Origin: Phorcus lineatus
Lineage: Eukaryota > Mollusca > Gastropoda > Trochida > Trochidae
Length of the DNA stretch: 64,000 nucleotides
NCBI GenBank assembly: GCA_921293015.1
Contig: OV121081.1
Location: 76,339,022 to 76,403,021, forward strand
Direction of reading: 5' to 3'
Shown here: piece after piece, positions 5,832-60,259 of the stretch
Layout: every line of letters begins with the position of its first letter
Numbering within the stretch: the stretch's first letter is position 1
Program-made: the position numbers and the translations under genes
The notes under the pieces: model-generated
What the model was told of the DNA's origin: nothing
The model's database searches: none
The model's input: only the letters and a program-made list of their open reading frames with translations

Positions 5832-8533
5832 GCGTTTCCCAGATGACTTGTTTATACTGGCAGTGTATTAATCATGTATGTGTTTGTTTTCATAGGCAAT
5901 TCTAGTATTCTGTCCTAAATGGTAATTCGATAACTTACTGTTTGCTAACCAACATTTTCAAGGATTATACTATTATGTTTCAAACTGTATACTTTAAAAA
6001 AGCTTCAAGTGAAACTACGTAGATGATGTTTTACTAGTTTTAAGTGCGGTTGACTTAGAATGACCTATTGATAGCTAACGATTAAAAGCGGTTCCGAGAT
6101 TTTCCTGAAAGGCACGCTATGACCATAGTGACTACGCTTGCAAATTGAAAGCGACTCAAAGCATGCTAACTCGTGCTTTAATGCATGGCTGAAATGTTTA
6201 AGGTGTATATCAAACGGCTTGTCCAATAAACCTACTCATATATATTGTATTTTCACGTGTTATTGGTGGACGTTGTAGGTAGCAACATGCAATGCAGCTA
6301 AGTGGATTGCATACATCAAACCATGAATTTTCGCTAAAACAGAATATTGGTAGCGTTTATGTATTTCTTACCATGGTTACATTGTACATACGGTGACCTC
6401 ATGTACAACATCGCTTTCTCATGACGATTGCATGTCTTTAACGTTGCGTTTTAATGCTGCCGATGGCGGGAAGCCGGCTTTAAGTTATGGAAGTTTATCA
6501 TAAAAAGCCATCGATGCAATAAAGCTATCGGATAAACTTGGTATCCAAATCTGGTAAGCGAGGCATTGTCAAAAGTGTTGAAATATGTGTTATGTGTTTC
6601 CTCCAAAAAAAAAAGTTTGCGTCAATCGTAAATTATGGATGAACTACTGCGAGTTTCATATGTCCGTATTAAAAAATATAAAAATGAATCGCTTTGACTG
6701 ACTGTTGTCCACTGACCTATTAAACTAATAATTGATCATGTTTTTTGAGGGACTTCGAAATTCATATGGAATCAAGTATCATACAAACAAACGGAACAAC
6801 GCCACATGCGCAAATAATCGCCGCTTAATCTAAGATACTGATAATCGCCGATCCGAACAAAGAAAACATGTAGTTAGAGTCGCCTCCCCTGTTTTAGCGA
6901 CGTTGAGGCGTTATTAATAAACATTCGGAATATTAGAGTACCATAAATAAGCTAAGATATTTGCTTATGAACATGGAATCTGGTATAAAATGTTGGCAAA
7001 GTTTTAGGAGACGAGTATGTCAGTTTGAACAAATATTTTGTGAAGGAATAACTCAAAGCAGTGACACAACCATATATCGCCTTGAACGTGACCTTTACCT
7101 TGGTGTATTGTAAATGATCCGCAGAATCTAGGTCACGACATTTGATATGATGGAGAGAGATCTGCTTTTCAAATTTCTGTAAAAAAAATATCCTCATGTG
7201 TTTCTTTATCATTAATATCATTTATAAGAAATGCAATATATATGTATTCATATATCGCCAAAGGCTCGCACAGTACACATTTTCTTCATAATTTATTATA
7301 TGAATGATACAAAACCACACTAGGTAAATAATCTAATTATTGGTGTGTATTTATCGCATTTGTGTGAAGTCTGTTATATTGAGAACATTATAGATATATC
7401 CATATTACGATATTCGTTCAAGCATTTCCTTGCGAACTATCAATATTGAGGTACATATCCGTGTCGTTAACATAGCATGGCTAACATAACATAAATGTCA
7501 TGGAGAGGATAATACACTTAAATGAGTTGGTTTCTCTACCAACAATTCTGACTTTATGTTATTCCCCAGAAGCCTTTCAGTCAGGCAAACTGTTATTTAA
7601 GGACGTAGTGTATAGGTCATTATTTATGATAAACATGCAGAGAGGTTAAGAATATGACAGATTATGGTTCACGTCGATTTTTTGAATGCTCTCAGTTGTT
7701 AATCGGCATGATAGAACTAAAAAAATACCATGGCAAGATTTTTCGCCATGTTAATTTACAACATTGCAAATTTGTTTTTGAAAAGGACCTGCTAATGCTG
7801 AATACTTGGAGTAGTAGGCAAGGAACATTTCTCTCGTGGGTGATACCAGAAAACTAAACGGATCTGGATGTTTCTGGTGATTGTTTTAAACCATTTAACA
7901 TACAACATACACCGAGGAATACCTTTATGTGAGGATTACAATAAACCTAAATCTTTGTACATTCCCAGCACGGATACTATTACTTGTTGTTAATAATACC
8001 ATCAAAACTCTTTTGTATTTCTATTTAGTTTCTGAAACGTATTTTTGTGATGTGAAACAAACAGATCCCATAAGAGTCGTGGCAAGGGTATATATGTATG
8101 TTTATTGTGCGACCAGATAAGTTGCTATATTCAGGTCGCAAGTGTTGACGCATTTATAAGAGGTGCACATTCGAGCATTGACGAGGGTGCCGAATGAAAG
8201 GCAAATGACGATCAAGTTATCGTTATCGTTATCGTTTCCCATATATGATGATCCTATGGCAAATTGTATCATCTTGTTAAATTCGGCAACAATGCCAACC
8301 TTAACTCTATCAGGTTGTCCTCCACTTTCTCGTGTAATCGCACTTCTCCTTACAATTTGCTCCTATAAAGTCATTATTAGACCACACAATGACGAATTTA
8401 TTGCAACATAATTTGTTTCCCAGCGGTTTCTGACCGTTAAAATTGTTAGAAAGGAACACTGTTCGAGGATTTTACCATTGTTGCTCGGTTGTATATTCAC
8501 TATGAGATATCCTCTGGACACTTAATGACTTAC
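5832..8533. other. Non-coding stretch
   Basis: A+T-rich. The longest frame is an 89-codon minus-strand run (6952-7221) with no recognised motif, and a 67-codon plus-strand frame lies at 7654-7857. A short imperfect repeat of tatcgt units occurs near 8216-8236. Nothing else is supportable. Confidence 0.45.
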
Positions 8534-8690
8534 ATACGTCCGGTGGCATTTTCAGAATGGCATCGGGGCTATACATCCGAGTGCCGCTAGACTTGTTTGC
8601 ATATGATATTTGAAGAGACTGCAGATTGGCGAGTGGTCTTGTGTCGTATCTATTATTCATCAAGGTCCGCAGATGCAGATTCCCAACTAT
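8534..8690 (-). CDS. Candidate exon or relic with leucine-rich-repeat character
   Basis: A minus-strand frame runs from an upstream stop near 8690 to a perfect splice-donor consensus (GTAT|GTAAGT, exon end at 8534, phase 1). The translation contains LANLQSLQISYANKSS, which fits the leucine-rich-repeat pattern LxxLxxLxIxxN, preceded by NLHLRTLMNNRYD, a plausible previous repeat. The spacing of the two leucine patterns is roughly one LRR unit (about 22-25 residues). Such exons occur in Toll-like receptors and other LRR proteins, which are numerous in molluscs. No acceptor of good quality is visible upstream, no neighbouring LRR exon was found, and the frame also continues past the donor for 20 codons, so it could be a gene fragment. 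Confidence 0.35.
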
Positions 8691-10783
8691 TCATTTCACA
8701 ATCATGGGAAGTCATTAGATATGTTTAATTTAGCTTTCGATTCATCAGCAAACTAGAGTCAGGTGAAATTAATGTTGATAGGGTGCTTGAAGCAGATATA
8801 AAGTGAAAACGTTGTTTGTTAAGGCGTACGTTAAGATGTGCCTTTTGATATATTCGATGTTCGAATCACTCTATTCACAGGGATATTAGACTTTATATGA
8901 TACATGCCGATTGATATGTATACTGAAAATATTTCAATTATTTAAAGGCACCGTGCAGTGTACGCATTTTCGCCGTCAAATTTCATATTCTAGGGCATGA
9001 AGCTTTCTATTGATGCAAAAACATGCGTATTATTCTTTACAAAAAAACTGCAATCAATTATGAAAATGATAAAGCAGACGAAGTAAAAAAGGACGTCAAA
9101 ATTCTAATGTGACCGTTATGTACAAGTCGGAAATACTGATTGTTGAGAACGCTTAAAATAGAAATTTTATAACTTTTGAATACGCACTAATTTTCTAACT
9201 ATAGACAAGGGATAAAATATTCATTACTAAGATATATCTGTTACTTAACCCGTTCTTATTTACAGTATAAACATGGCTCTCGCATTAATCAGCGTGGTTG
9301 CCGTTTTGGCTTTTCAAGCCGATATCTTACTTCATGCTTATAAAATTCAACGTTGCATTAAATACTTCCGGTCAGATGGAATTAATTTATCCTGAATAGG
9401 TGAATATTTGGCAAATAACTCTTGACTCCAATAAGATACTCATTTAAAGGGAAACAGTTTCAGTAATGGGTTTTATAGCTTATAATTATCCATAGATAAA
9501 GCAGATGAGTACCAAATCCTAACACTCTCAAATTAAATGTTAAATGTCAAACGAACTAAATGCAATGTGGAAAGATTTTCAGTTATTTGGATTTAAATCA
9601 CATATCAGCAGATTAGATCATATTTCTTTACTTAAATAGGTGACATTATGTGACAACCATCACACGTTATCCGCATTTGATTTTTCAGGTGAGGATATAA
9701 CGCCATTTTCCTTTGAGAATGATACCCACCAGATCCGAAATAACATCTTAAGTGAACGATGGTAGGAATCCAATGATTGACCAAAGTTTTATAGTCAAAT
9801 ATGCAATTTTCCTATTTCTATTGAACCAGTTTTTAAGATACAGTGCTTTAAAGCATTCTAACCTTTAATAATCAAAACCACGATTTTAGGTTTTCAATTG
9901 TCAGGAAATGGTGACATGTGAAGTATATATTAATGTTCTTTGTTTCATTCAATTATCAGGCTTAACACTGACATTAGAAGAGAGGAGTAGCTCATTATAT
10001 CGTTACATTACATCCAAAGTACCATGCTCGAGTGCTCTAGAAGATATTTTATGTACGCTTCAGACGTTCAGCCGTTACGTTAATACACACGACAAATGAT
10101 ATAACATGTCTGTCATGAGATGTCTATAAAGAGAATAGAGTGAGTGAGAACGAGAAAGAGGTTGAGATAGACAGAAGGAGGGGAGAAAGATACACGACGG
10201 TATCAGGTTTTAAAGATAGAAGATAAATTTCTAACCCAGAGAGTGTTCGACTTGAAAGAGATGGAAGTGAGAAAGTTTCCGCCTGGGAAAGATCTTTCTT
10301 CCATGAATTGAGACATAAAAAGGGAATAGAACTCACAGTCTCAATTTAATCATCCCCAAAAAACAGGGCCTTCTTTGTCAAATATTCAAAGGTGGACAAC
10401 TTTCCAAATTGTATCATTGAGAGAAAAGCTCTTAAATCTATAAAATTATATATCGACCCCAATTATCTCCCCACAGAAATAGCTCCGTCATTTATGAGGA
10501 ATTTATGACGAAGCTACCTCTGTTTGGAGAGAAAGATGGACCCTTAATGATTAAAACTTACTGTCAACTATCAATCTCCGAATTTGGCTTACCTGTTTAA
10601 ACTCATACCGAAGGAAATTGGCCGGTGGAGTGAAATATCTTTTAATATCGCGTTACATGGCAAATTCCATTTCCTTTCTGCCGTTCTGCGGGTATGCCCT
10701 TAACGTCTTCACGAAATTCAAGAAGCGTTCGTAAAATATCAAATAAGTTTACATTTTGGCACTTTATATATACGCACATTGAA
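8691..10783. other. Non-coding stretch with a stem-loop and a purine-rich run
   Basis: No gene is supported. A purine-rich tract covers about 10131-10200. An imperfect inverted repeat at 10482-10519 has arms tagctccgtcat and atgacgaagcta. A TTAAAGGCAC-type sequence at about 8942 resembles one end of a TTAA-flanked MITE, but no partner end is nearby. Confidence 0.45.
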
Positions 10784-13062: not shown

Positions 13063-16000
13063 CACACCGACAATCAAGTTAATCTTTGGTTGATATCGTC
13101 GGGAACATATTCATTAACATACCGTTGAAAATTTATTGCCATATTTACATAGGCATCAACAACCAATCAAAATCTTACGATCCATCATTACATAAACTCC
13201 TATCCCTTGATTAAACTCCGCTGGTTGAAAAGAGGGTAATCCTGTGTGCGCAATCAGATAAGAGTGGAGCGTAAATTTGAATTTAACAGTAACAGAATAC
13301 TGTGTTGTGAATAGGCTAACCTTCTCCCTAAATTGTTTCTCCTAGACGTTGCCAAACAAAGTACATGTTTTCTGCTTTTGAGATAATCCTTTTTTGGTTA
13401 TGTTTTTTGTTAAGACATTTATTTGATTTCGACATACTTGGGATATAGTCAGCGAACAAATCAAACGATACGATTAATAAAATCTTGCAGGCTAACGGCA
13501 GTTACTGTCAAATTACTTTATGTCTTATTATCAATGTATAATTGTGTACACTTATATGTTGCGACTTAAAACATTGTGATACGCGTGCCTATGTCAAAAA
13601 TGAGAATATTACACACTTTCATATACTTATTTTGATATTTTATATGTAGGGAAATAGTATATTTGATGTAAGTAAAAGTTTACAGTGATGATTCGAAATA
13701 TGAACAGTACGGTAAAGTACTCAGTAAGTGAACTTCTAAGAGTCAACACGTGTACTCTAAGGAATGTTCTTCAAGTTGAAAGCCCTTCTGTCAATTATCT
13801 TCTACAAATAATGTAAAAGTTATTACATAACGTTCATGTGCGATAGAAAACTTTTAATCCTAAAATATTTTAGAGTCTTTATCACCTGACATGGTTTATC
13901 GACACATTGATTTGACATTAAAAAAAAGTTCGTGAAATACATGTAGAAAGTGCTGCCAGACAACCTTTTACAGCTCTCATCAGGGATTACTTAACTTTTG
14001 TTCAAATACATTTCAATGTCTGCATAAAAGATACCTGATATGACGAGTGTGGATTGCTGATACAATCAACGAGTGCAAAGGGAATACTGGTATCACAATA
14101 CACTGTCTACATTAGTTTTGAATTGGCTTTTATCATAAATCGAAGTAAGTCTTCAAAGAAACATGCATTTTACTTTTCTTATAAATAAATGTAAACCAAG
14201 TAACACTTTGAAGTTTAAGATTGAGCTGTAGTGAACTTAACGGTTACAAATTCGATAAGTTTATAGAAAATATGCTACTTGCTCCTGTAACTACCATTAT
14301 GAAGTATGTATGCACTACTTGTTCATTTGCCAATACTATTCACGTATTAGATCAAACAGCTATTAATATTATTATGTAAAAGGTTTCTATATAAAAACTG
14401 TTCTTTTTGGTAATAACGATTTATCTGATGACACTAACTTGAAAATTTGTACGTACGTTTATAGATTTCAGTACAGATTTAAAAAGGACTCAACCTTAAC
14501 CATCCTATATTTGTTACCAAACGCAGGCAAAACATTTGAAAGTTTATTTTCTTTTTTTTTGAATGTACAAGTTTACAAATTGTGTTAAATCATGTTATTT
14601 ATATAATATGTAAGTTTTACAGGAATTTGTTTCCTGTTATAATGTGTTACAGGTTACTTTGTATGTATCCTGTCCTCGTCACGGTGAGCAGTATTTATAT
14701 AGGGGAAACCCTGTTTATCAAACCCTTTCCTGTGCCATCTGGAAATAAATGCAGTTTAAATCAAATGCATATGTATAGATACAGATTGTGATCAAGGCTA
14801 AGTTCAACTATTCATCTTTATCCATAACGTATATATATATGCGCATGAACTCTGTTTCGGGAAATTTTGTCAAACCGATCTTGAAGACGTATGAAAATGA
14901 CAATTAAGAATTGAGTGTTTAGTCGGGTTTGTTACGTCAAGGTTCTCTATATTGATCGTTTTGTGAAAATTATCTTGCGACTGTCTAAATGCATTTCGTT
15001 TCGTTCGCTTCAGTTCAAAAGTTACCAAATGATTAAATTCGATTTCTTCTTTTCATTTTATTGACTAAAGAAAAAGGAATATGGTGAGTTAGATTTTATA
15101 TAAATTCGTCGCTATATTCGATGTGGGAAACGAGAAAGTAGTTCCGGTGAACGTCCACACCGCTTAGATCCGCTAGAAAAGTTTCACAGACGTATGAACG
15201 ATTTTTTGAGAGTTTATGGGAACTAAAGTGTTGTAAATTGACAATGTCTTTTAGTTCTAATAACAAAAGTAATGTAAAGTGGTGTATGGTTATGCCATTT
15301 ATTCCGATAATGGTTATGATTTATGTAAGATAAAGAACTTAGTGGAATTCAATAGTTAAACGCCACTTTGAATTAAGATAAATTGCGACTTTTAGTGAAT
15401 CGTTCTTCGTGACTGAAACTTGTTGCATGACTTACAAACTGTTACAGGGATGTTGCCTTATGCTAAGATGGTTTAACATGGTTATGGAGGCTAATTTGGC
15501 TTTCAAGTAGGCAATTGCAATACAAAGTTGTTTCGAGAAAGCAGTACATTTCAACATGCTTAATTGCAGGATTAAGTATACATATGCATAGATAATGCAC
15601 ATCTCTCTCGAACCGCACTCAAGTAATCTATAAGTATAATCTATATCTATATAATCGTATAAGTTATTTGAAATATGTATAGGTATTTAGGCTGTAATTT
15701 AATTCGACATTATTAAAAACAACGTTGTTTTAAATAGCATGAACCTAAAGATTTTAATACAGTCTGAAAACCAAAAACGGCAGTCGTTATGGTTAATACA
15801 ATGCAAGATCAATGCTTACTTGTGTATGAAATTAGGGAAATTACAGATATGTGTTAATAAAAATATGCTATCCTTGTCTTCATTTAAGAGATTTAAGTTT
15901 ATTCAGAAGTTGAACACATTACTAGTTCAGTCCTATTCAAGAACACAAATTTACGATTTGTGTACAACCGACAATTAACATGTTTGACATTCCTTTGTGA

Positions 16001-16158
16001 TTTCGGCCACATTAATATTTTCATTACTGATTGCAGGTTAGTTGTAAAGAAGAAAAGGAATTTCAATGATACTGTAGAAAGCTAAATTGAATGCATAAAT
16101 CCTAATAGGCCATAAAATAGCCAATTGGAGCGCGAAGATGCGTGCTATAGTACATGTA
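13063..16158. other. Non-coding stretch
   Basis: A+T-rich with short chance frames (for example 14582-14791 and 15739-15978, plus strand). I see no repeats with recognisable ends, no RNA gene and no convincing exon. Confidence 0.45.
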
Positions 16159-16345
16159 CACTACACCCATAAACAAAGTACCCCCTTTCTAGAAATTTCT
16201 AGAACGTATCTAGAACGTATCTAGAAACTTTCTAGAACGGATCTAGAAACTTTCTAGAAACTTTCTAGAACGTATCTAGAAACTTTCTAGAAATTTCTAG
16301 AAATTTCGAGTTTTTATTTTTTGAGAGATATTCAAATTATTTAGA
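16159..16345 (+). repeat. Left terminal inverted repeat with eleven CTAG units
   Basis: After the CACTACACCCATAAA tip and a C-run, about eleven tandem units of 10-11 bp (variants ctagaaacttt, ctagaacgtat, ctagaaattt) run from 16189 to about 16306, ending in cgagtttt. The same sequence occurs inverted at 23190-23374. Confidence 0.85.
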
Positions 16346-17205
16346 TTTTTTCTGAAACTCTATGTTATCTTTTGCATAATATGAAAAGATGAACTGCTTA
16401 TGTTAATTAGGAAAGAAGATATTCAATGTTAAAGTTTCCCTCCTCTACAACGTAACCTCATTATAACGCCCCCTGCTAGCGGAATGCTACGCATTGTTAA
16501 CGCGCTTCCGGCTCCCACTAATGAGCTGTAACGCGTCTTGTCTTGCATTTAGAATGGATGCATTGGCATATGCAATGTGTTTGACAATTTCTATGGTTGT
16601 ATTTGTTGTTTATTGCGTATTGTTTATCTCATATCTTGATATTAAAGTCGGTTTACCTGAGACAGTAAACCCCTGCTGTTAATATTGATCGTTAACTCAT
16701 GTTAACAACTGAAGTCAGCCTACAGATTTGCCTTCAAAAGTAGAATAAGAAAAGAAAAAGAAATACAGTTGATATAATCAATTTAATGTTGTAATGTAAA
16801 TTCTAAAAAAATGGTTTTGATAAGGTTTATAAACAAAGCCCTTTATCACCTCAAAAGAAAAAGTACGTACTATCTATCTAAGTCTTCTAGGGAACATTAC
16901 AAATCAAAACGATAAAGCACATTTCTCTCTGTTAGCCTAATTATTAGATATAAGTATATAGATAGCATTATTAGTATAATAAAGCGTCTTATTAATCTTC
17001 TTTCTATATTTGCTAAATGTTCAATGGGTTGCATTATAGAAGCTAGTGCCTACAAATCAAACAGTATTCTTCTGATCATAAATAGCAGGATATTTATATA
17101 CAAACTAGGCAGTTTGTAATAGCTGTAATCGGATCACACCGCATTTTCTATTTATTATCCCTATCGTTCACCAACTCGGTATACTTATAAAATGCATAAA
17201 CGGGA

Positions 17206-17478
17206 TCAACTTGTTTCTTTAGGCCAATCCTTGGAATATTTGTCTGCCTGTGTTTGTAAATCACTCTTATCAAACCAGCTGAGCATATAGTCCATGGGCG
17301 AAAACAAGACTTTTATTTGAGAAGAATGTGCCCTATTGGTGTCACAAATACAAATTTTGAAATGATTACCTTGTATAAACAAATATGTGACCATTTGAAA
17401 ATTGTCTACGGAGTATAAGTGCCCTGTCCTATATTTTACATGTTTCATGTATGAAAATACGCGTACGACTCTCAACAT
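17206..17478 (-). CDS. Unassigned 90-codon frame inside the 7.2-kb element
   Basis: ATG at 17478, stop at 17206, minus strand. The translation has a balanced composition that looks less like chance than most frames here: a central stretch FKICICDTNRAHSSQIKVLF and a charged C-terminus ending KYSKDWPKETS. It alternates hydrophobic and polar residues as a beta-rich domain would. I recognise no family and no catalytic motif. An internal CAAG|GTAATC could be a splice donor. It lies about 0.9 kb inside the left end of the putative element and could be a remnant of its cargo or of a captured host exon. Confidence 0.25.
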   Translation of the reverse strand: MLRVVRVFSYMKHVKYRTGHLYSVDNFQMVTYLFIQGNHFKICICDTNRAHSSQIKVLFSPMDYMLSWFDKSDLQTQADKYSKDWPKETS

Positions 17479-17844
17479 TTGGAGATCTTAATTGAGGGGT
17501 GCACGCATGGTATAAAGATCACGGTTATGTTCTAAAGACACCCAATCATACGCGCTATGGAATTGTGATGTCGTTACGCAGTTTTCCTTTCTTCCGTACC
17601 AAGTCACCTTAGAATATATGCAAAAGGAATTAGCAAATTAAGTTTCTCTCACAGTTCGTAATATTTAATCTGTAAACTTAACATTAGTGCAAAGAATAAC
17701 CAAAAACGTTATGAGATAAATAGGTGAATGAGATAAAAAAAGAAAAACATTCTTGTTGGTTTAATATAGGACACATTTGAAGTAAATATGCAAATCAAAA
17801 ATACCCTCGTTTCTTCAAAGACTTACATATCATAATTGAATTGG

Positions 17845-18225
17845 TTAAAGGGGGATTGACTAATGTAAAGAACCTCTGCTTGCTCTTCAGAAAATGAAAA
17901 GATTGTAAGAGTTAGTTCTCTGTTAGGACGTCGAAATTCTGCATACATTTTACAAGTGTAGTAGTTAAAAGTCCTAACCAATCAATATTTACATTTGTGT
18001 TTGATGTAAATAGGTTTTAAAAATTACGTTTGAATCATTGACGCGCGTCACTGTCCGGTTATCGATCACAAATCGAGACTTCAACCTGTTTTATTGTCAC
18101 TATACTGAACTCATAAGCAGAAATATGCTAAATTTGTTGAAACAACCATACCTTCTTGATAAAATAACACTATATATGAAGTTTGGCATATTTGACTCTT
18201 AACAACATACTGTGTGGCCCTTTAA
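17845..18225 (+). mobile_element. TTAA-flanked MITE, copy 1
   Basis: Begins TTAA-AGGGGGATTG and ends GTGTGGCCCT-TTAA, and shares a conserved core (ttgacgcgcgtcactgtcc, then atcgatcac) and a distal block (ttgtcactata, catatttgactc) with copies at 18732-19175 and 48623-49094. There is no coding capacity. The TTAA target and TTAAAGG-type tips match the T2/Kolobok pattern described in Xenopus; piggyBac also uses TTAA but usually has CC-type tips. The family assignment is inference. Confidence 0.7.
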
Positions 18226-18731
18226 CTGTTCTGCGTTTTACAGTTCTGCATTTGGAACTATGCCAAACAGAGAGATACAAAACTGAACGAAACAAATCAC
18301 TTATGTAACGTACTGTAAATGATCATAACGTTCACCTTCATTTCCTAGTTGACCTTTATGAAACAAGAAAACGATGAAGACTTTATAGTTCTTGACATTG
18401 CTAGACAATTTCCGTTTGTTCTTCATCCCCACAATTACAATTTAATATGTTATAAATCAATAATGTTTTCAACTATAACGGTATTTTATGTCCATGTGTT
18501 TAAAGATTTATATCAATTTGTATTATAATTTAATAACAACTCAGTCATATTGACATGTACGCAGTGTTATGTTATTCACATATCTATATACATTTAATTA
18601 TATAAGAACGCAACATAGAGATAATCATTTTACTGTCGATGGTTTCTGCGTATTGATAGGAACAAAGTAGATATTACATTCCTAATCTACATTAGAATAT
18701 GACATGTTTTGTAAGTTTGGAAACAGTCATT

Positions 18732-19175
18732 TTAAAGTGACACAGAGTATGTGTTATGATTTTTCATATTACACAGATAATAGCTCAAAGACCATGGGTC
18801 CTAAGTGAGGTTCTAATCGTCTCTCTTAACATTTATTTTTATCTCTAAAATGCCAAATCAAGGAATATTTCCTGTTAATAAATTTGGAAACGGCCGTATG
18901 TTTAAAACTTTTTAGTCACATTTACATGTTCATTACTCAACACTTAATAAACACTACAAACCCATATTTGTATTTTCGTCTGCTGTAAATAAGTTTCCAA
19001 AATAACATTTTGCTCAATGTCGCATGCCGTTGTCCGGGTTTTGATCACACAGACTGAAAATTGCTTATTGTCGCTATACTTAACAGATGTTGAATTTCAT
19101 AAACTACCACTACTTATCGATAAAATTACAAGTTTGACATATTTGACTCCAAAAACATTTTATGTGCCCCTTTAA
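18732..19175 (+). mobile_element. TTAA-flanked MITE, copy 2
   Basis: Begins TTAA-AGTGACACAGAG and ends ATGTGCCCCT-TTAA. The core is diverged (cgcatgccgttgtccggg, then tgatcacac), but the distal blocks attgtcgctata and catatttgactcc align with copies 1 and 3. Same orientation as copy 1, about 0.5 kb away and also inside the 7.2-kb element. Confidence 0.7.
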
Positions 19176-19310
19176 CCAAAAAGGAAATCAACAAGACATA
19201 GCGTCAGTACTATTATGTAACTTGTGAGTTTAAGTTGAAGTGTGTTCGACTGTGTAAGTTAAGGCGAAAAAAAACACGTCAAATACGAATGGTTTTTAAA
19301 GGAATGATGA

Positions 19311-19511
19311 CGAGTAACTGCAATAATAATTATTGTTTTACGTGCAATTTACTCAGTGAACCGTATCTCCCGAACAGGCACGTGTACGGAGAACCGTAAC
19401 CTGGAAAGAATATGTCGTAATTTCAAAGTACTTCAGTGTGAATTAACAGTGTATTCTACAATACACAAACGGGCTGTCGAGACAAAGACGGGAATGCGAA
19501 TCTTTTTCTGA
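19311..19511 (+). CDS. Possible exon remnant, unassigned
   Basis: A stop-free plus-strand run lacking an early ATG encodes a Cys- and Arg-containing stretch, RTGTCTENRNLERICRNFKV, and ends at TGA 19509-19511. Its composition looks coding-like against the local background, but there is no strong acceptor or homology I can name. A second coding-like plus-strand frame with several Cys residues follows at 19906-20135. They could be neighbouring relic exons inside the putative element. Confidence 0.18.
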   Translation, partial: RVTAIIIIVLRAIYSVNRISRTGTCTENRNLERICRNFKVLQCELTVYSTIHKRAVETKTGMRIFF

Positions 19512-19905
19512 AGACTACAACGCCTAATCATGTTACGCAATTCAGTCTACGACAGGGGACATGTTTATTACCATTGGACGGTAGAGGCTGCAGTTTAAAC
19601 ATTAATCATATTCAAAGTTATATAATTCGTTATATATAAATATAAATGTTAAATCTCGCCTCATAAAAAACATATACGGTTAAAGATTATTATTTTCATT
19701 ACTTTTATGCAATAAGAAATCAAATTTAATGAACACACGGTGTATTTGACTTTCTACAAAATCAAACCATACAAAGTTACTTGGAACGATGAATGAACAG
19801 TTGTTGAACTTCCATAGCTGTCATGTCTATCTTCGACATCTTTAAAACGGTTATTAATATCGAAACATACAATACGTCAAATGAATAATTTTCTTTTAAC
19901 CGTGT

Positions 19906-20135
19906 AGTTCCACGACGGACAAGACTCCGTTCAGAGTATCCAGTGTCAAATTGTGTTGCATATAACGGTGTGGACGATATCAGAGGGTGTCAGTGTGAGT
20001 GGCAGGGGAGTTGATAAATTGTGCCTAAACAAAGTCATGAAAGACTGCAGCATGGAAATATGTATCCAAAAGCCGTTACCGATAAAGACGATCGTTAGTT
20101 TTGGTCATAAGCAGTGTTGCACCGGTAACACTTGA
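19906..20135 (+). CDS. Possible Cys-containing exon remnant, unassigned
   Basis: The plus-strand frame includes LCLNKVMKDCSMEICIQKPL and ends HKQCCTGNT before a stop at 20135. Five cysteines in about 35 residues are unusual for chance translation. A GT lies within ACCG|GTAACA near the end and might be a donor. No domain is recognised, and the minus strand is also partly open (20076-20264). Confidence 0.18.
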
Positions 20136-20748
20136 AACAACGTTGGCGTTATGAAAATCTTTTCGTTTAATGAGAGAGTGTTTTAACTGTACCGACTGTG
20201 TTGAAGATGAGATGCTTGTTTTTATTGAAGAAAATGTACAATTCATGAATTGATTGTCCAACAAGCGCCAAGGTGCTTATTTTAAGGCCACTCCGAAGCA
20301 ATTACATATGAGAAAGAATTAGAAATTGTGGGTTAGTTACACGTATCTTATTGCGATCATAGGTTCAAAGAAAGTGGTTATGCATAAATAACATTTCGCT
20401 TGTTTGGCAGTCATTATGAAATGTCAAATCGATCATATTTCATTATGTATGATGAATAGAATTCAACAATCTAGTAATTAGAGCGATGTACATCCCCGTA
20501 GTACTGTTTTTATACTAAATTCTTTCAGATAAAAGAATGATTTCTGTCTTTATTCTATGTACTTTCGGCATGTGAGGAAATAGTGAACAGCGTTTTCGAC
20601 TGGGTGACCACATGCAGGAACAAGTCTGGCTTTCTATGATATGTCTGTTTAACCTATCAGCGTTCAAGTCACCACAGCGGGTGAGAGTAGATAATCTAGC
20701 AATTTAAATAATCTATTTTATTGCCAGGAGTTGATTAATTCTATAGTT

Positions 20749-20973
20749 TTATTGTGTCAGGAAAAACGTTCTTGCATTTGACGCTGTCCTACATTTTACT
20801 GTTCGAACAGATGAATTTTCTCTGTCGTTATTGTTAGGTGTTGTAGGTAGAAGGTTACATTGATATTCAGGCGCGGGATTATTCTTCCTTTTGAAGAACG
20901 TTGTCAATTTAGACATGTCTACGTTCCGACAGGTTTTGATAAGTTTGTTCATAAATACTGTTTGGCGATCCAT
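20749..20973 (-). CDS. Small unassigned frame with upstream TATA-like box
   Basis: ATG at 20973 opens 74 codons beginning MDRQTVFMNKLIKTCRNVDM; the middle is polar (FFKRKNNPAPEYQC) and the end KCRTASNARTFFLTQ. A TATATA run lies at 21011-21018, about 40 bp upstream on the minus strand, which would allow a very short leader. It sits inside the 7.2-kb element in the same orientation as the frame at 17206-17478. The product is unknown. If the element is real this is a candidate element gene or the first exon of one. A chance frame remains possible. Confidence 0.25.
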   Translation of the reverse strand: MDRQTVFMNKLIKTCRNVDMSKLTTFFKRKNNPAPEYQCNLLPTTPNNNDRENSSVRTVKCRTASNARTFFLTQ

Positions 20974-21049
20974 CGAATTGCACTTGTGTGATTTTGTGCC
21001 GATCGGTGGAATATATAAACACTGGGAAAAGCTTAGTGCAATAACGTAA

Positions 21050-23189
21050 GCGTGTCGTGAGAAGATGTTATTTTTTAACTGGGCACCTAAAAGTTCTCCT
21101 CATACACTCATAAACAAATAAAACAGACTTAGAAAGGAAGTGTATTGACAATGTTTATTCCAGCTCGTCAACTGAAGCAGGGATCTAATAGACAGGGATA
21201 TGAAACAAATAACTGACTGTACGACATTACTGCTACACGGGGGTTACACAACTCGTCTCGCTCATTACCAGGTCACTCATCACCGCACATGTCTATACGA
21301 TCCATGACTGAGGACACAGGAGAAGAGCGAGATTACAGTTACCATTTTGACCAGACTTTCCAAGTACTAAATAACTTCCTTGTAGTGCTATAAACTACGT
21401 ATGTCGGCGATCTCTTACATAATATCTTTATTATCATTTCCTGTTCCGAGACAGCTGTGTTTATTGCTGTATGCCTCGCCTTGATTAATTAGATAACATA
21501 ACATCACTGTTGAATGAAGCTTAACCGGTTCGTTCATGCAGGGTATAGCGTCTGATATACTACCGGTAGGTGGAATATGATACCGACACATCACCGTGTC
21601 TATGACAAAATGTAAATTATGCTGTTTTCATTATGTTCAATCTTAATCCAACTATATATTTTAATTTCATTATCTTTTTAATGTCAAAAGCATGTATCCA
21701 TCTACTTTGAATTGACGGGGGGAAATGAATAACGATAAGTCAATCCAGCATTAGGACGAGATAATGTTTATTGTACTTTTACTGAAGTGAATATATCATT
21801 TATGATGGCACAGAACGTTTGTGCCCCTTTCTCTGTAAGAGTGGTAAATACGTTAACCGGCACTGCCAGGTTTGTAAATATCAGTTATAAGTATTTCTAA
21901 TTCTTATCCATTGATGATCAGAAACCCATATCGGAACGCATGACGCGCGAAGTGAATACCTGTCGATACACATCATTAATTTAGCGTAATCACTATTTTA
22001 ATTTGGCCACTTTCGGTACATTGTCTTGAGAGATGTTTTGATATATTAAAAAGATTGTTCACCATTCCTATGCCGTTTTATATGTAATAGAAGGTTTATC
22101 CATCAAGTGATAATGTTATATTGCGAAACGATTGTTCTACTTCGCGCATTATATAAAAAAACGATGCACACTTGCATTTCATGCTTCTTTTACAAAACCT
22201 CGCATTTTTAAGTTGGTTAGCGTAGGCATTTTCCTTTTAGTATTGAATGATAAAAACATCAGATGTTAAGCAGTTTTCTTTAGGCTTTAGGACTTTTTAA
22301 GGATTGCATACAAGTAATCACAACTAGGATTCTCTATCATAATATAATCTTTTCATATTCGACTTTGGTGTAGTGATCTTAATGGAATATACTAGATTTA
22401 TATGTGACAGTTGCTATCACTAAACGCCTTACATTTCTTCATCACCTGTCCAAATGTTGATGACATAAGACTAAAAGGCATATTTCTTTCAAAAAGGGTT
22501 TAATCTGTCGTCAATTCTATGTGGTCACCCGGGCTCATCACAAGAGGCTAACCAAGGACTATTGAAATCTGTTAATAATTTTATCAATTTATCAAAAAGA
22601 TTTTCGGAATTCAACAAACGTTTTTCTATGTGCCCTGCCTTGCTGAAACAATCAAACAACATGTAGTTATGAAGTTATCAGCGGTATGAAATAAGTTTGT
22701 AAATTTCTATTGTTTCATTGAAAGGTGTCCAACATAATCATGCATCTATAGTGTCCTGTTAACTGTATGTACGTATTCATTCGTCCATATGTACGTCACT
22801 TTTTATGTAATAGTATATTTGTTTAGACGCGACATTTATAAAATGAAATAAAATATGTTTAAACCTTAATATAATTCATGTAGTGACAGATTTACACATG
22901 TCCCCAATGTCTCTTCCTTCATAAGCTCGCATACATTATTTATAAAAAGGCAATCGCAATGTATATAAGTTGGAACATCTTGAAGACGAGCGATCTAATT
23001 AGTGCCGATCAGTGAGATGCTAATATACGACGTGCGCTATATATAGATTGCCCCTTGTGCAGCGGTAAGAGGCGCGTTAAAACGAGGAAGATTTAAAGTT
23101 CATTATCAATTATCTCTCTTTATATTAATGCAATCTTGTTCAAAATTTCACAACAGGCAAAGTAAACATGAGGATTTTGAATCAGGTTA
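21050..23189. other. Non-coding interior of the 7.2-kb element
   Basis: No frame above about 60 codons and no recognisable transposase motif. A weak tRNA A-box-like sequence near 23061 lacks a B box. Confidence 0.4.
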
Positions 23190-23374
23190 TAAATTTTGAA
23201 TATTTTGAAAAGAGTGAAAACTCGAAATTTCTAGAAATTTCTAGAAAGTTTCTAGATACGTTCTAGAAAGTTTCTAGATACGTTCTAGAAAGTTTCTAGT
23301 GCGTATCTAGTGCGTTTCTAGTGTGTTTCTAGTGTGTTTCTAGATACGGGGTATGTTTCTTTATGGGTGTACTG
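23190..23374 (-). repeat. Right terminal inverted repeat with CTAG units
   Basis: Inverted counterpart of 16159-16345. From about 23224 to 23345 there are about eleven 10-11 bp units (tctagaaagtt, tctagatacgt and a set of tctagtgcgt/tctagtgtgt variants near the outer side), then the tip ttatgggtgtactg ending at 23374. The outermost units have lost the 'aa', so this end is more diverged than the left. Confidence 0.85.
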
Positions 23375-24186
23375 TACCATTAAAATCCTTCTTGAAGTGA
23401 CAATGTGGATTTACGACAATACATGAAAGATTGCTAATGGTTAACGTTAACTACACTTCAAAAGTATTTATTGAGTTTCTTAGGAACACATATGTTCACT
23501 CTCAGCACAGGTGAGTAGTGAGCACAGGTGAGTCGGTGCTCGTTAGGAAAGATTTATTACCTTGATGATCCTACCATATGCAATAAGACAGATAAATCGT
23601 GTACCTCAACTTTTACCTCACAACAAATATTTGAATCTTCTTTTTAATCCAAAATGTGTTTAAATAACAGCCATCAAAAGAAGCATATCAATACAGTATG
23701 ATATTTTGGAGTTGGAAATATACCAATCATTATAAACACACGTTTACATTTATTTTGTTAATTAGCAATACACATATTTATATCTGTACAAGATATAAGA
23801 ACATTTCTTTCTACAAAGCATAACTCAATGTTATGTTTTCATGTTTTAACAGAAGGCAAATAGCTCAACATATTCGTATATTAATTTCTTTAATAGAAAT
23901 TTTATTTCATAAATAATATTTTCAATTTGGTATTCGTTATACAATCCATGATAAAGATTCTACCTTTTGATGATTTTTGTATGAAAATGCACGTGCATTT
24001 TCCATTTAAATGGTCATGGGCAGAATTTTCAATCGTCGAAGAAACGCGGCATAAAAATACTTAAACTGCATTCCACGCAAAACGAATTGCTATGGGCGTA
24101 GACGTGACAGATGCCTTATCAGAACCTTACTCCATCATTGAAAAACGTTTTTCAAACATTGCAAGTCAAATCCAGAATCTGCGCCA
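23375..24186. other. Non-coding stretch; possible promoter of the next gene
   Basis: No gene. The last ~150 bp before 24187 would be the 5' UTR and core promoter of the signal-peptide exon. No clear TATA box or other motif is seen in it. Confidence 0.35.
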
Positions 24187-24893: not shown

Positions 24894-25178
24894 GTGTGTG
24901 TGTGTGTGTGTGGGTGTGTGTGTGTGTGTGTGGGTGTGTGTGTGTGTGTGTGTGAGTGTGTGTGTGTGTGTGTGGGTGTGTGCGTGTGTGTGCTGATAAA
25001 ACCTCGGTTCTATATCAAAACTAGTGTGTATGTGTGCGTTTGTGTGGGTGTGGGTGTGGGTGTGTGGGTGTGTGTGTGTGTGTGCTGATAAAACCTCGGT
25101 TCTATATCAAAACTAGTGTGTATGTGTGCGTTTGTGTGGGTGTGGGTGTGGGTGTGTGGGTGTGTGTGTGTGTGTGTG
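24894..25178 (+). repeat. (TG)n microsatellite with 92-bp duplicated unit
   Basis: A TG tract interrupted by GG and GA occupies 24894-24990. Then a 92-bp unit starting tgctgataaaacctcggtt occurs twice (24991 and 25083), each copy ending in a TG/GGTG run. The copies are nearly identical, so this duplication is recent. Long open frames of alternating Val/Cys and His/Thr across the tract are artefacts. It lies in intron 1 of the putative secreted-protein gene. Confidence 0.95.
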
Positions 25179-30154: not shown

Positions 30155-30459
30155 TCAGATATTAGTTATTGATAAATGATGATTCACCCCTGCCACCGCC
30201 GATAACGTCACAGTAATTATAAGGGTACGATTTAGCAGGTGGAGTCTGCACAGATATCTGTCTTTGCGAGGTGTCGTAATTCTTGGCCTGCCTGACCTTG
30301 GCCGGTCCTCGGTGACACCAGTCTGCCTCAATCGCTGTAGCAACTTATTGACGGTTGTAGTCGTGCAGTTAAACAGCGCCCTTGGAGTGTGACGTTGTGG
30401 TACCCCGTTTAACTCATTCCTATAGCCCTCTCGCGCTGTTGCATTGTCAATCTGGCCAT
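30155..30459 (-). pseudogene. Tc1-like transposase, N-terminal fragment
   Basis: On the minus strand an ATG at 30459 begins MARLTMQQRERAIGM, the first helix of the Tc1 paired-type DNA-binding domain. After a stop and a frameshift it continues as LLQRLRQTGVTEDRPRSGRP then RITTPRKDRYLC, the GRPR hook and start of the second helix-turn-helix typical of Tc1 transposases. The catalytic DDE part is missing altogether, so this is a 5' relic. It is a different subfamily from the copy at 59250-60232. It lies in copy A and I saw no counterpart in copy B, so it probably inserted after duplication. Confidence 0.85.
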
Positions 30460-33039
30460 TTTATGATTTCCTTCACTGTATGTTTTCAATACAAATTAAC
30501 TGTAAGTTAGGACAGGAAATACTCAAAGGTTTGGAGCTGCAATTGCACAACAAGTTTGTCAATGTTATGGAGCATTAGCGTACATTTCAACTCACAAAGT
30601 GTAATACTTTATCAGTTGTCATTACAGTAGACATGCACATATTATTCTATATACATTTTAATGAAATTCTCATCGGTTATTACGTGTTTCGCATTATTAA
30701 ATGTCATACATTCTTTTTCTCGCTAGTTTATATTAACAACAGAGTATTTATGAAATGAACATATGATTTAACGACGCTTTTAAATTTTTAAAACTACAAC
30801 GCTTCAATTCAATTGAACGAGGGAATAGATAAAATTAGTTATGCCTGCATTAACAGTCTGCATATTTATAAAGCGACATGACAGAAAATGATCAAACCTG
30901 AATATTGGTTAATTTGATTTCATATTAATTTAATCTCTACATCAAAGTAAAGATTTCAAATTTTGTCAATTCACCAAATCAAATTTTTTAAGATATAACA
31001 TTCTAGAATAAAAAGTATTATTTTCTCTTGATTGCATACAGCTGCATACCGAAAGTTTGTTCACTTACCACTGAATCGTAGTGCAAATATCATGTAATGT
31101 GGGTTTCGTTTCAACGTCAATAGAATAACTTAAGCAAAACTAACAATGGATCACCCACTGTCCATGTGTGAAATAGCAATTCTTGAAATCATTTTGGCAT
31201 CGTCTGGTCTCTCGTGCAAAAATTCTAACTTTGGCATATTGATATAGACAGAAGGCGTCATAATTTCGAAATTTAGATTTCGTTAAATGTCAAATGAAAT
31301 GATCCGTATCGAATCTCTGAGAATAAAACCCACCTAATCACATTGCCTTTGTGCTAAGGAACAACGTGACTAATTTTTAAGAAAGTTGATAACTTATAAA
31401 GGATTTTATGGAGAAAAATAAAAATTAGTGTTTTCGGAATTTTGACCTCTGGTCACTTCAATGGCCTGCCAAAACTGTTATGGGTAAACATTTGCCTTAC
31501 AGAAGAATGGATCTACATATCTGTATTGAAAATTCAATTATAACCGTTTCTTTTTCGCAACGCTATGATACCTCAAAGGTATCTCAAATTACATGATATT
31601 TGCACTAGTATGTTCAGGTATGTTAAGAAAATTTTGGCATGGAGCTGTATAGTTTATGCAGAATGTTGAGAAATTAGATGTAAGAAATAGTAACTGGAGT
31701 GAGAGTGCAGTGTAATTGTTTTCTCCCTAATACTTGTTTTATTTACTGTGATGCTATTTTTGATGTCCTAAATGAGTCACACTGCAGTAAGAATTTTCTT
31801 TTTGAAGGCAAGATGACCTAGATACAAGAGTTACTATATTTTTAAAAAGCATTTATTGAGTAATATATACTTTTTATTTAAATCTTACCTTGTGAGATAA
31901 TAAAGGCGGTTCAACTAAATGTAAACATTCCTGTTCTATCATTTTTGGAAACTTTTCAAAATTCACTGAAGAGAAGGCAAGAAATTAAGTAAGTTTGTAA
32001 AACAGCTGCTTTTCTACCTGAACGTTCCTTTCTTGGCAGTCTGCCACTTATACTTGATGTGGTGCTTTAATTCAAATAAAGTGAATTCATTTATTTCTCA
32101 TTTGAAAAGACGAAGTATTTTCTTACATAATTGGATATAGAATGTAAATAGAATATGTTACAACCGTATATAATCTTCACGAAATGATTTTTCGACTTGA
32201 ATAGTGTTTATCAATAAATGTATTATATCAGTATTTACATGGTAATTGTTGCTCATCGGTTGGGTGTGTTTGTCGTGTTCTCAATCTGTCCTCTGGTCTT
32301 CTGTATGTGTGTCCTTCCATCTGATTCCTTCTCCGCAGGTTGTCAAAGAAATCTCAAATAATGAACAATATTCACTAGTTATGATCACCCTATTCCAAAT
32401 ATGCAAAATGTTTCTACCAAAAACAACGAAATTTGATTTTGTTTAAAGTTTAGATTTTAAAATTAGTTTAAGAATTATATTTTACTTTGAAATATGTCAT
32501 TAAACTTTGTCAGAGACAAAGCTCCATAATTAAAGAGTTTAGGTTTAAATACACATACAATGTTTGGTGAGGCATATTGTAAATGGATTTAATACATATT
32601 TTGGGTACCTGCTGAACTGAACCGTTGTAGGAAGTCTTCACATCGGGTTGCTGTCAGACTAAGACAACAATTACTTTGAGATTTCAAACCTACCCTTTAA
32701 TTATGTAAATTTGTGTGCATGAGAGTTTTAAACTAGATATATGCAGAGTACTTTTTAGAGTTTTGTTTGTTTTGTCTGTTATGTTGTGACATTGCTATGG
32801 TGTATATAAATTTATGTATTTATTATTTGTAAATAACTATTTCACTTCCACTTTGTGAGCGTGTATCACTGTTTTGGATACAATTTCACCTATATAAGAA
32901 GCAGCTCTTTCAATACCATTTGCCGTTGCATTGGCGATTAGATAGATATGGTTTACATTTGCGTACATAAAATGTAAATAATTATACTTCTATTATCTAC
33001 ACATAGATTCAGCTTTTGATTCTTTTTAATCTTTTTCAG

Positions 33040-48397: not shown

Positions 48398-49410
48398 ATG
48401 GAACGTTCTTTAAACTGAGCACAGTGAGGCCATCAAGTTTCTCACGAAAGATGGGGCGACCGAAATGCATAAACATATGAACAGTGCATGGGAAAGAAGC
48501 CCCTCAATATTCTACTGTTGCAAAATGGTCAGCTGGGTTTAATCAGCTACTCGGACGATGACCCGCGGTCAGGAAGGCCTGTTCAAGCCATTAAAGATAT
48601 TATTGTAGCACGGGCTCAGGGCTTAAAGAGCCACTCCGTGATTTTCATAACATGTTATTTACATTTGATACGAACCTAAATGTCATATGTGGTGATATAA
48701 AATCAAATTTTTTTATATTTTCCAAAAGACATATATATGACAAATATTGGTTTTCCATGAAAATCTAAAATCAGCCTCATAAATGCACAGAGGTGTAGAT
48801 ATCACGTCCAACATACATGGATACTAGTTATATAACCTAACAAACACTATCAACTCCTAACTGCCCTCCTGGCTGTTTTAGATAAGTCTCCAAAATTACG
48901 TTTGACTATTTGACGCGCGCCACTGTCCCGTTTTCGATCATAATTGCGACTTTATACCTTCATATTGTCACTGTAAAAAAACAATAAGCTTTAAAATGTG
49001 TCTTTTTGGTTACAGTCGATACTTCGCGATCAAATGACACCATTGATTAAGTTTTGCATATATGACTCCAACAACTCACGGAGTGGCTCTTTAATCATGT
49101 CCGATCGTAGATTAAAGGTGGACGAGAAATCTTCAGAGTGTGGCATTTCTCATGGAAGTGTTTGCATCATGTTTTAAGAGCTCATGCACATGTCCAAGGT
49201 GTCTGCAAGATGGGTGCCACGAAACTCAAATGCCCAAGATCGACACCAGACAGTTTAATCCAGTCGTGAGCTCTTATATTGCTGATGTCGGTAAATTTCA
49301 TGCCCGCCTGGTTACAAGGGATGAAACGTGGATTCATCACTCGGATCCTGTCTAAGCCGTTTGCTGGCAAGATCGTGGCGACCATTTTCAGACATTCAAG
49401 TAGTGTGATA
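48398..49410 (+). pseudogene. Mariner transposase, broken and interrupted by a MITE
   Basis: The plus strand starts with an ATG at 48398 and, with frame changes, reads IKFLTKDGATEMHKHMNSAW and SDDDPRSGRPVQAI (the mariner DNA-binding domain and GRP hook). After the insertion at 48623-49094 it resumes with DRRLKVDE, GISHGSV, HMSKVSARWVPR, DFHARLVT-type HARLVTRDETWIHHSDP. The DETW block carries the first catalytic Asp and is the mariner signature. The sequence stops soon after, so the other two catalytic acidic residues are absent. Internal stops (for example after MF and after DP) and shifts show the copy is dead. Confidence 0.9.
48623..49094 (+). mobile_element. TTAA-flanked MITE, copy 3, nested in mariner
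   Basis: Perfect 15-bp terminal inverted repeats AGAGCCACTCCGTGA (left) and TCACGGAGTGGCTCT (right) sit between two TTAA tetranucleotides, and the mariner reading resumes on each side. The core ttgacgcgcgccactgtccc with tcgatcat matches copies at 17845-18225 and 18732-19175. It is the best preserved copy at its ends. Being nested, it is younger than the mariner insertion. Confidence 0.9.
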
Positions 49411-59249: not shown

Positions 59250-60232
59250 TCAGTAGCGAGTGTGACCCCCATTGGCTGCAACACATGCAGTACAACGACG
59301 TCTCATTGAGTCCACAAGTCTCTGGAAGAATGCCTGGGGGATTTGATTCTATGTCCTGATCAACATGGCCTCCAAATGTCTGAGATTTTGAGGGGGACCA
59401 GCAGCTTGAACTCGTTTTCCCATTTCATCCCAGACATGCTCAATTGTTGCCATGTCTGCAGACAAGGAAGGCAATGGCATTACAGCGACGATGTTCATCC
59501 TCAGGAAGTCCATGGAAACATGCGCTCTGTATGGGGACGCGCATTATCCTGCTGGAACTAGTGGAGTTGAGGATGGGCTTGGGACAGCGGCACAACATGG
59601 TTTTGCAGAACTTCGTCTCTGTAGACAACACCAGTCACACGTTGTCGAAACCCATGCAGCTGTGTTCTGTGGTGGTAACTGAAGGCTCCCCACACTATGA
59701 CGCTTCCTCCTCCCCAGCGGTCAGCTTGTCTTCTCCATACACGGATTCGACCATCAGCGTGCGACATGTTAAATCTCGACTCATCAGAAAAGACAACTTG
59801 TTGCCAATGATGACGACGGCAACGCTGATGTTGTCTGGCCCACTGTAGACATTGTTGGCGATGACGTTGCGTCAGTATTGGTCCGACGTAAGGGCGTCGA
59901 CAACGGATTCCCGCAGCTCGCAGACGTTGACGATGGGTGTCTGCTGAGATGTTCCGATGTAGTCCTTGAATTGTTGCAGCCGTCTGCGTTGCTTGCTGTT
60001 GACGGTTCCGAAGATGGCTGACCCGGATGTACCGATCTTGAGCTGGCGTTGTCACACTTGGTCGTCCCGAACGTGGATAATCTTGAACATGCCCTGTTTG
60101 GCGATACCTTGTCCAGAGTCTAGTGATGATTGTAAGATGGCACCCAAAGTGCCTGGCTACCGCAGTTGCTGTTGAGCCAGTCTCCATCATTCCATTGGCA
60201 ATTCCTCGGTCCTGCTGGTTTAAGCGTGGCAT
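59250..60232 (-). pseudogene. Tc1-like transposase, nearly full length, inactivated
   Basis: Minus strand, ATG at 60232 (MPRLNQQDRGIANGMMETGS). In order: paired-type DNA-binding domain (ARHFGCHLTIITRLWTRYRQ), GRPS hook (YPRSGRPSVTTPAQDRYIRV), second helix-turn-helix, and the catalytic core with the first Asp in VVFSDESRF and the WGGGSVIVWGAF block. A TAG at 59558-59560 cuts it after 224 residues (QAHPQLH-stop). Beyond it the frame continues with FQQDNARPHT (second catalytic Asp); after a shift it reads ADMATIEHVWDEMGKRVQAA, with the catalytic Glu in IEHVWDE, although the usual SPDLNPIE is altered to SADMATIE. It ends at a stop at 59250-59252. Full length would be about 325-330 residues, normal for Tc1. 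Terminal inverted repeats were not located. Plus-strand frames over this interval are shadows. Confidence 0.93.
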
Positions 60233-60259
60233 GATCAGTTTTTCTTCTTCCAATCAATT

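Follow-up and report, generated by a model that had tools for sequence, protein, structure and literature searches.

The non-autonomous DNA transposons that multiply are usually short derivatives, and elements of the Tc1/mariner superfamily insert at TA, which is duplicated. In CACTA elements the subterminal repeats are described as cis-determinants bound by TNPA, the element's proteins can act in trans, and deletion derivatives are moved in trans (PMC2613891). Among the animal TRC elements, SmTRC1 has a 2-bp target-site duplication in seven of 14 copies (PMC1636069), and Spongebob_HMa (EnSpm-4N1_HM), a 5.8-kb element reported in 441 copies, also has a 2-bp duplication; according to that report its exact transposase was not found by its authors, owing to stops or frameshifts (PMC4298943). 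The ESTA elements described from rust fungi are EnSpm-like, duplicate TA and carry TET/JBP genes (PMC12730594). DNA transposons that are large and high in copy number, yet have no identifiable transposase, are already known, and Spongebob_HMa (PMC4298943) is a close parallel to the family described here. It comes from the gastropod Phorcus lineatus and is represented by one complete 7216-bp insertion, at positions 16159–23374 of a 64,000-nucleotide stretch of genomic DNA (the window), that runs from a left end with the tip CACT to a right end with the tip CAGT and belongs to a repetitive DNA-transposon family. A literature search returned no paper recognisable as about this family, Repbase and Dfam lying outside that search.

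We read the family as a large non-autonomous class II (cut-and-paste) one that is moved in trans by a TA-targeting transposase, and give this reading a probability of roughly 0.87. It is carried by paired left and right inverted ends, an exact TA duplication, a shared interior, presence at many loci, recent copying, and the lack of a recognisable protein in the copies read. The features of the window copy are collected in Table 1, where handles beginning with C denote contigs and those beginning with L and a number denote loci.

The tips of the window copy read CACTACACCCATAAA on the left and CAGTACACCCATAAA on the right. An earlier note on this stretch, made from its letters alone, had placed the element and its TA flanks at coordinates that prove right to the base, and its description of inverted ends sharing a tip, a CTAG array and an inner sequence holds as well, the parts common to both arms being the tip, the array and the inner AGAAATTTCGAGTTTT. 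Behind each tip the array is built of CTAG-centred 11-mers (TCTAGAAACTT, TCTAGAACGTA and variants, as delimited by Tandem Repeats Finder, TRF), and each end has exactly 11 CTAG sites, 10–11 bp apart, versus 10 in the whole 6860-bp interior. The inverted arms are 91% complementary over the outermost 22 bp (flanking GTA included) and 92% over 65 bp within the arrays, and an ungapped arm extends over 174 bp at 75%. All 13 Rfam matches lie in the CTAG arrays and below their gathering scores, and look like chance matches to palindromic repeats; a tRNA search of the window found none.

Table 1. Coordinates of the transposon and its parts in the window, with the evidence for each.
Feature	Position	Strand	Evidence
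Complete element, left end to right end	16159..23374	+	Matching 7.2-kb unit at C32:16110014 (L036)
Left TA of target-site duplication	16157..16158	.	TA both sides in 13/13 complete copies; empty-site paralogue with one TA
Left tip CACTACACCCATAAACAAAGTACCCCC	16159..16185	+	Either-end tip pattern, up to 1 mismatch, at least 137+138 places vs 12+19 for reversed control
Left subterminal array, 11 CTAG-centred sites, 10–11 bp spacing	16188..16303	+	TRF, CTAG count
Innermost stretch common to both ends, AGAAATTTCGAGTTTT	16299..16314	+	End sequences compared
Non-coding interior, colinear in other copies	16400..23190	.	Pfam in six frames, codon periodicity, copy alignments
TGT, read as scar of a deletion; L025 and older copies have about 980 bp here	17921..17923	.	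Copy alignments
Decayed fragment like C-terminal tail of a non-long-terminal-repeat (non-LTR) reverse transcriptase	20481..20916	-	tblastn E 5e-13, 2e-8, 1e-5
Site of about 210 bp present in other copies	21966..21968	.	Copy alignments
Second decayed fragment of the same kind	22357..22603	+	tblastn E 1.3e-6, open reading frame (ORF) in L027
Site of about 100 bp present in other copies	22969..22971	.	Copy alignments
Right subterminal array with 11 CTAG-centred sites, degenerate in its outer units	23231..23343	-	TRF, CTAG count
Right tip CAGTACACCCATAAAGAAACATACCCCG (reverse complement)	23347..23374	-	Sequence read directly
Right TA of target-site duplication	23375..23376	.	TA both sides in 13/13 complete copies

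The genome (958 Mb in 74 contigs, the window lying on contig C1) was scanned for family ends by similarity searches with each end, in which 40 of 478 and 40 of 475 candidates were scored, and by three tip-pattern searches. The resulting list holds at least 292 distinct ends, 142 left and 150 right, a few of the left ends having been inferred from interior matches (six at first, observed ends later superseding or agreeing with two of them). The tip patterns occur beyond chance: that of the right tip, with up to two mismatches, is found at no fewer than 72+77 places and another at no fewer than 52+55, versus 0+0 for the reversed control in both cases. When neighbouring ends that face each other within 30 kb are taken as a pair, a definition that may let in a few of the longest by coincidence, there are at least 93 facing pairs, and 92 of these 93 join one left to one right end, the exception being a 188-bp pair of two left ends. 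Shuffling of 241 ends gives a mean of 0.4 facing pairs below 20 kb, against 71 observed. The two ends in the window, each of which was thought to lack a nearby partner, are partners of each other in the same way, and 106 of the listed ends have no facing mate. In two places family ends are tandemly duplicated: a second right end lies about 590 bp beyond the first at L028:1321–1932, and two left ends are 214 bp apart at C16:14871671/14871885. The asymmetry between left and right ends, constant across copies, may reflect function or mere descent.

Pair sizes range from 153 bp to 23.6 kb with a median of 8.8 kb: four of the 93 pairs are below 4 kb, five are at 4–7 kb, 62 at 7–10 kb and 22 above 10 kb. 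The distribution peaks near 7.7 and 9.2 kb (16 pairs at 7.5–8.0 kb and 21 at 9.0–9.5 kb). Two pairs (153 and 188 bp) are under about 1 kb, so the family is not of the size of miniature inverted-repeat transposable elements (MITEs). Nor do the ends occur always alone or in short elements without a reproducible spacing, the pattern that the earlier note had named as speaking against its proposal. That proposal, a large non-autonomous DNA transposon family with mixed CACTA- and Tc1-like tips, a TA duplication and no recognisable transposase, is supported.

The target-site duplication, a feature of non-autonomous terminal inverted repeat (TIR) DNA transposons, is present and consists of 2 bp, TA, and copies at unrelated loci have their inverted termini at the same fixed boundaries. 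In all 13 copies for which both junctions were read there is TA at each junction and no longer repeat; these copies came from DNA-similarity searches that did not require TA. One further line of evidence is an empty site. The copy at L022/L023 is located in a 73-bp tandem repeat, of which the adjoining unit represents its empty site, matching the joined flanks over 146 bp at 98.6% identity with a single TA. From the 13 junctions and this single-TA site together we conclude that TA is duplicated on insertion and that the tips begin at C. The flanks of L033 and L026, which have an 84% repeat in common, were also examined and gave no empty site.

The interior is non-coding by each measure applied. 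Thirty-four stop-to-stop frames of at least 50 amino acids overlap positions 16000–23600, the longest having 116 amino acids on the minus strand; the interior frames are short, as had been proposed, and lie on both strands, not on the minus strand alone. A Pfam search in six frames, with X at stops, of the window copy and of a 980-bp block present in a related copy (L025) gave no credible match, the sole row having an E value of 0.17, far under its cut-off. Substitutions show no codon periodicity in any of 47 windows of 300 bp (largest chi-square 5.4, 2 degrees of freedom), a test made on alignments to 12 loci that span at least 150 bases, are no more than 94% identical and include some matches between internal repeats, and 1-bp indels are the commonest indel class in the interior alignments. 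Neither the window copy nor this block of L025 thus has coding capacity. The decayed fragment at 20481–20916 matches repeat ORFs outside the element in L036 and within an insert of L027, and the ORFs matched by it and by the fragment at 22357–22603 are presumably those of non-LTR reverse transcriptases; such decayed pieces indicate that the element carries along old, dead sequence in at least some of its interior. A stretch at 18007–18225, inside the element, is 73% similar to one at 48879–49094 in the window and also occurs outside a copy in L036; it is an old dispersed repeat.

Comparison of the copies shows that the family has moved recently. The whole 7.2 kb of the window element is present in L036, with just 78 differences in 7184 aligned bases, and the copies at L021, L022/L023, L024 and L034 are 97.7–99.6% identical to the window copy over blocks of at least half a kilobase. 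Identity is nearer 91–97% for L025 and L033 and mostly 81–93% for older copies, which hold some or all of the extra blocks of about 320, 980, 72, 210 and 100 bp that are missing from the window subgroup. Because L025, a near relative of the window copy, retains the 980-, 210- and 100-bp blocks, the window form is best read from these alignments as having arisen by deletion from an ancestor of roughly 9 kb. Other copies are young as well: L026 and L037 have 63 differences in 7700 bases, and L052 and L053 are 0.7% apart in one block. There are three young clusters of copies, about 7–10% apart in that block, and the near-identity of copies in several clusters indicates that several differently deleted versions multiplied recently. 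The earlier note's wording, "non-autonomous or decayed", is therefore apt in its first part and less so in its second, given copies 1% apart and several young clusters. Relationships conflict in part between blocks (by two blocks, the divergence from the window copy is 1.9% versus 4.2% for L033 and 4.9% versus 2.4% for L025), which suggests exchange between copies.

We propose that a transposase made elsewhere binds the tips and arrays, and the following steps are a model drawn from the architecture of the ends. A transposase supplied in trans by another element would recognise the roughly 17-bp tips, and this enzyme or an accessory DNA-binding protein would load on to the 11 CTAG-centred sites of each end, which lie about one helical turn apart. 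The loaded protein would then pair a left with a right end, cut at the tips and insert the element at TA. The body, mostly of 7–10 kb, would be carried as cargo, losing stretches by deletion and taking in other elements by insertion, and several versions with different deletions would each have spread in recent times. In such a scheme the CTAG arrays are reminiscent of the sites that TNPA binds in CACTA elements (PMC2613891), and the enzyme that moves the family is probably made elsewhere.

Several points weigh against trans-mobilisation of this kind. No autonomous partner was found among the candidates tried. Among the 22 pairs above 10 kb, those at L022/L023, L027/L028 and L031/L032 were read. 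Thirteen pairs exceed 12.5 kb, of which two were read in part, both containing other nested elements, and none in full; a transposase could lie in one of the unread pairs, and a partner can have been missed because the list of ends is incomplete. Moreover, short internal-deletion derivatives, which would be expected under free trans-mobilisation, are rare (the four pairs below 4 kb, two of them of only 153 and 188 bp), and either the interior or its length matters or too few deletions have spread.

A copy with a transposase of its own, for which the earlier note had advised searching, was not found among the copies read, and the genes considered as partners fared no better. Transposase_21 (PF02992) occurs at 10 places in the genome, all at least 69 kb from the ends in the incomplete list, and was rejected. 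Three of the 10 are copies of one CACTA element with an open 861-amino-acid Transposase_21 frame (L051:2475–5057; C16:21183474–21186056), to which two other copies match at 100% (rounded) over about 5.86 kb, so that it must have moved very recently; near its GTAGTG end and gene it has 80-bp repeats in place of CTAG arrays. A 14.2-kb pair on C7 contains frames of 473 and 241 amino acids towards its left end, neither piece having a Pfam match above cut-off or a PDB match. Of the 93 matches to the 473-amino-acid protein (from 90 candidates scored among 274), one falls within a known pair; the protein was therefore taken as a nested, unrelated repeat and the pair was rejected as an autonomous copy. 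This high-copy repeat protein (L053:6857–8275 and 8279–9001; C7:60526356–60528500) has many matches 97–99% identical, with frames of up to 866 amino acids, and probably serves as transposase to a different element that has been active recently; the block of that element ends ...GGTCGAATCGACATGGAATGACC. An 18.4-kb pair on C2 was rejected likewise, the 8.9 kb read containing a nested insertion (L052:1–3088; C2:54356400–54359487) whose frames look like a chromodomain-bearing Polinton/Maverick integrase and a protein of the capsid region. A frame beside one left end (L040), presumably MULE-like although Pfam gave no such match, was discarded as a single-locus feature: it is matched in full at its own place alone and elsewhere at no more than 58% identity, and of 146 places none is in a known pair and one, itself, is within 15 kb inside an end. 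Top-scoring Tc1/mariner DDE_3 genes (150 places scored of 4167 candidates) found no support, showing no association with the ends: none is inside a known pair and, within 15 kb of a known end, there is one on the inner side (0.69 expected) and three on the outer. The one on the inner side, with an open 376-amino-acid frame (C19:28013809–28014237), lies 3.1–3.5 kb inside an unpaired left end at C19:28017316, the chance expectation for such a case being the same 0.69.

As to the identity of the mover, a transposase of the CACTA/EnSpm lineage (CMC/TRC/ESTA-like), working on a non-autonomous element whose insertion duplicates the 2-bp TA, is a tentative choice that falls somewhat short of an even chance. 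The family is like CACTA/EnSpm elements such as En/Spm and Tgmt* in being multi-kilobase, in the CACTA of its left tip, and in having short tips with subterminal arrays at both ends (PMC2613891). However, the Tgmt* duplication is 3 bp (PMC2613891) and that of the family 2 bp, and the right tip is CAGTA, so that CACTA is not on both ends. A 2-bp duplication is described for the animal TRC elements (PMC1636069; PMC4298943), of which Spongebob_HMa is also multi-kilobase and high-copy (PMC4298943), but TRC tips start with CCC (PMC1636069; PMC4298943) and those of the family with CAC or CAG; the family further differs in its 11-site CTAG arrays, and no transposase remnant was found in the copies read. 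ESTA combines an EnSpm-like character with the TA duplication, and CA...TG termini, which the family has, are stated there for most of the wider clade (PMC12730594); the elements described there are rust-fungal, though, with TET/JBP genes (PMC12730594), and the comparison covers the termini and the duplication. Against any mover of this lineage stand the remoteness of the Transposase_21 genes from the listed ends, the absence of a Transposase_21 match from all six frames of the interior, and the different, 80-bp repeats next to the gene of the CACTA element at L051.

A giant non-autonomous Tc1/mariner element, mobilised by a Tc1/mariner transposase of the genome, would account for the TA duplication and for the right tip, CAGT being found in many such elements; the genome also has many DDE_3 genes with open frames. 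We nevertheless consider it rather doubtful, since the left tip is CACT, the 7–10 kb length and the 11-site subterminal arrays are unlike typical members, the element has no DDE_3 match in six frames, and the DDE_3 genes scored show the lack of association noted above. Stowaway-type MITEs are likewise non-coding with inverted ends and a TA duplication, but measure hundreds of bp where two-thirds of the family pairs (62 of 93) are at 7–10 kb. Another TA-targeting enzyme, described or not, is a slightly weaker prospect as the mover. Since none of the superfamilies considered agrees with the family in all the features tested, we assign it no more closely than to the non-autonomous TIR transposon families. 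That the family is instead autonomous, with its gene confined to a rare long copy or split into many small exons, seems unlikely: pairs of up to 23.6 kb exist and most long ones are not among the copies read, but the extra protein of the C7 pair belongs to a separate high-copy repeat, the part read of the C2 pair holds a nested element, and the shared interior is devoid of codon periodicity. That there is no transposon at all, and that a 7-kb block was spread by segmental duplication or in a satellite-related way, is scarcely credible; the copies are indeed multi-kilobase and similar, but their flanks differ, their junctions are exact at TA, the tips are the same in all copies read, and the clean empty site contradicts it.

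Elsewhere in the window there are two transposase-like fragments on the minus strand, at 59561–60253 (HTH_Tnp_Tc3_2, E 1.3e-8, over the cut-off) and 30158–30460 (HTH_32, E 9e-5, below it), and a GT microsatellite at 24894–25178 that contains a 92-bp unit repeated 2.6 times at 95% (TRF). Outside the window, an open frame of 414 amino acids with an nSTAND3 domain (Pfam E 7.5e-21) is located at L039:7557–8798, in the unmatched part beyond a family left end, and adjoins a tandem repeat of about 88 bp.

The family that we read as moved in trans is thus one whose bodies of 7–10 kb, although no gene is recognisable in them, have recently multiplied in several versions that differ in their deletions. 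We think it improbable, but worth stating, that an undescribed lineage of TA-targeting transposase reads an array of 11 x 11-bp CTAG units at each end and that a long interior or a minimum length is needed in cis; if true, this need would explain why 87 of 93 pairs are longer than 6 kb while seeming to encode nothing. With its young, precisely bounded insertions, their TA junctions and their regular ends of 11 sites, the family lends itself to asking which transposase moves such elements, whether end arrays rather than size set their mobility, and how much sequence they add to, or shuffle in, a genome.

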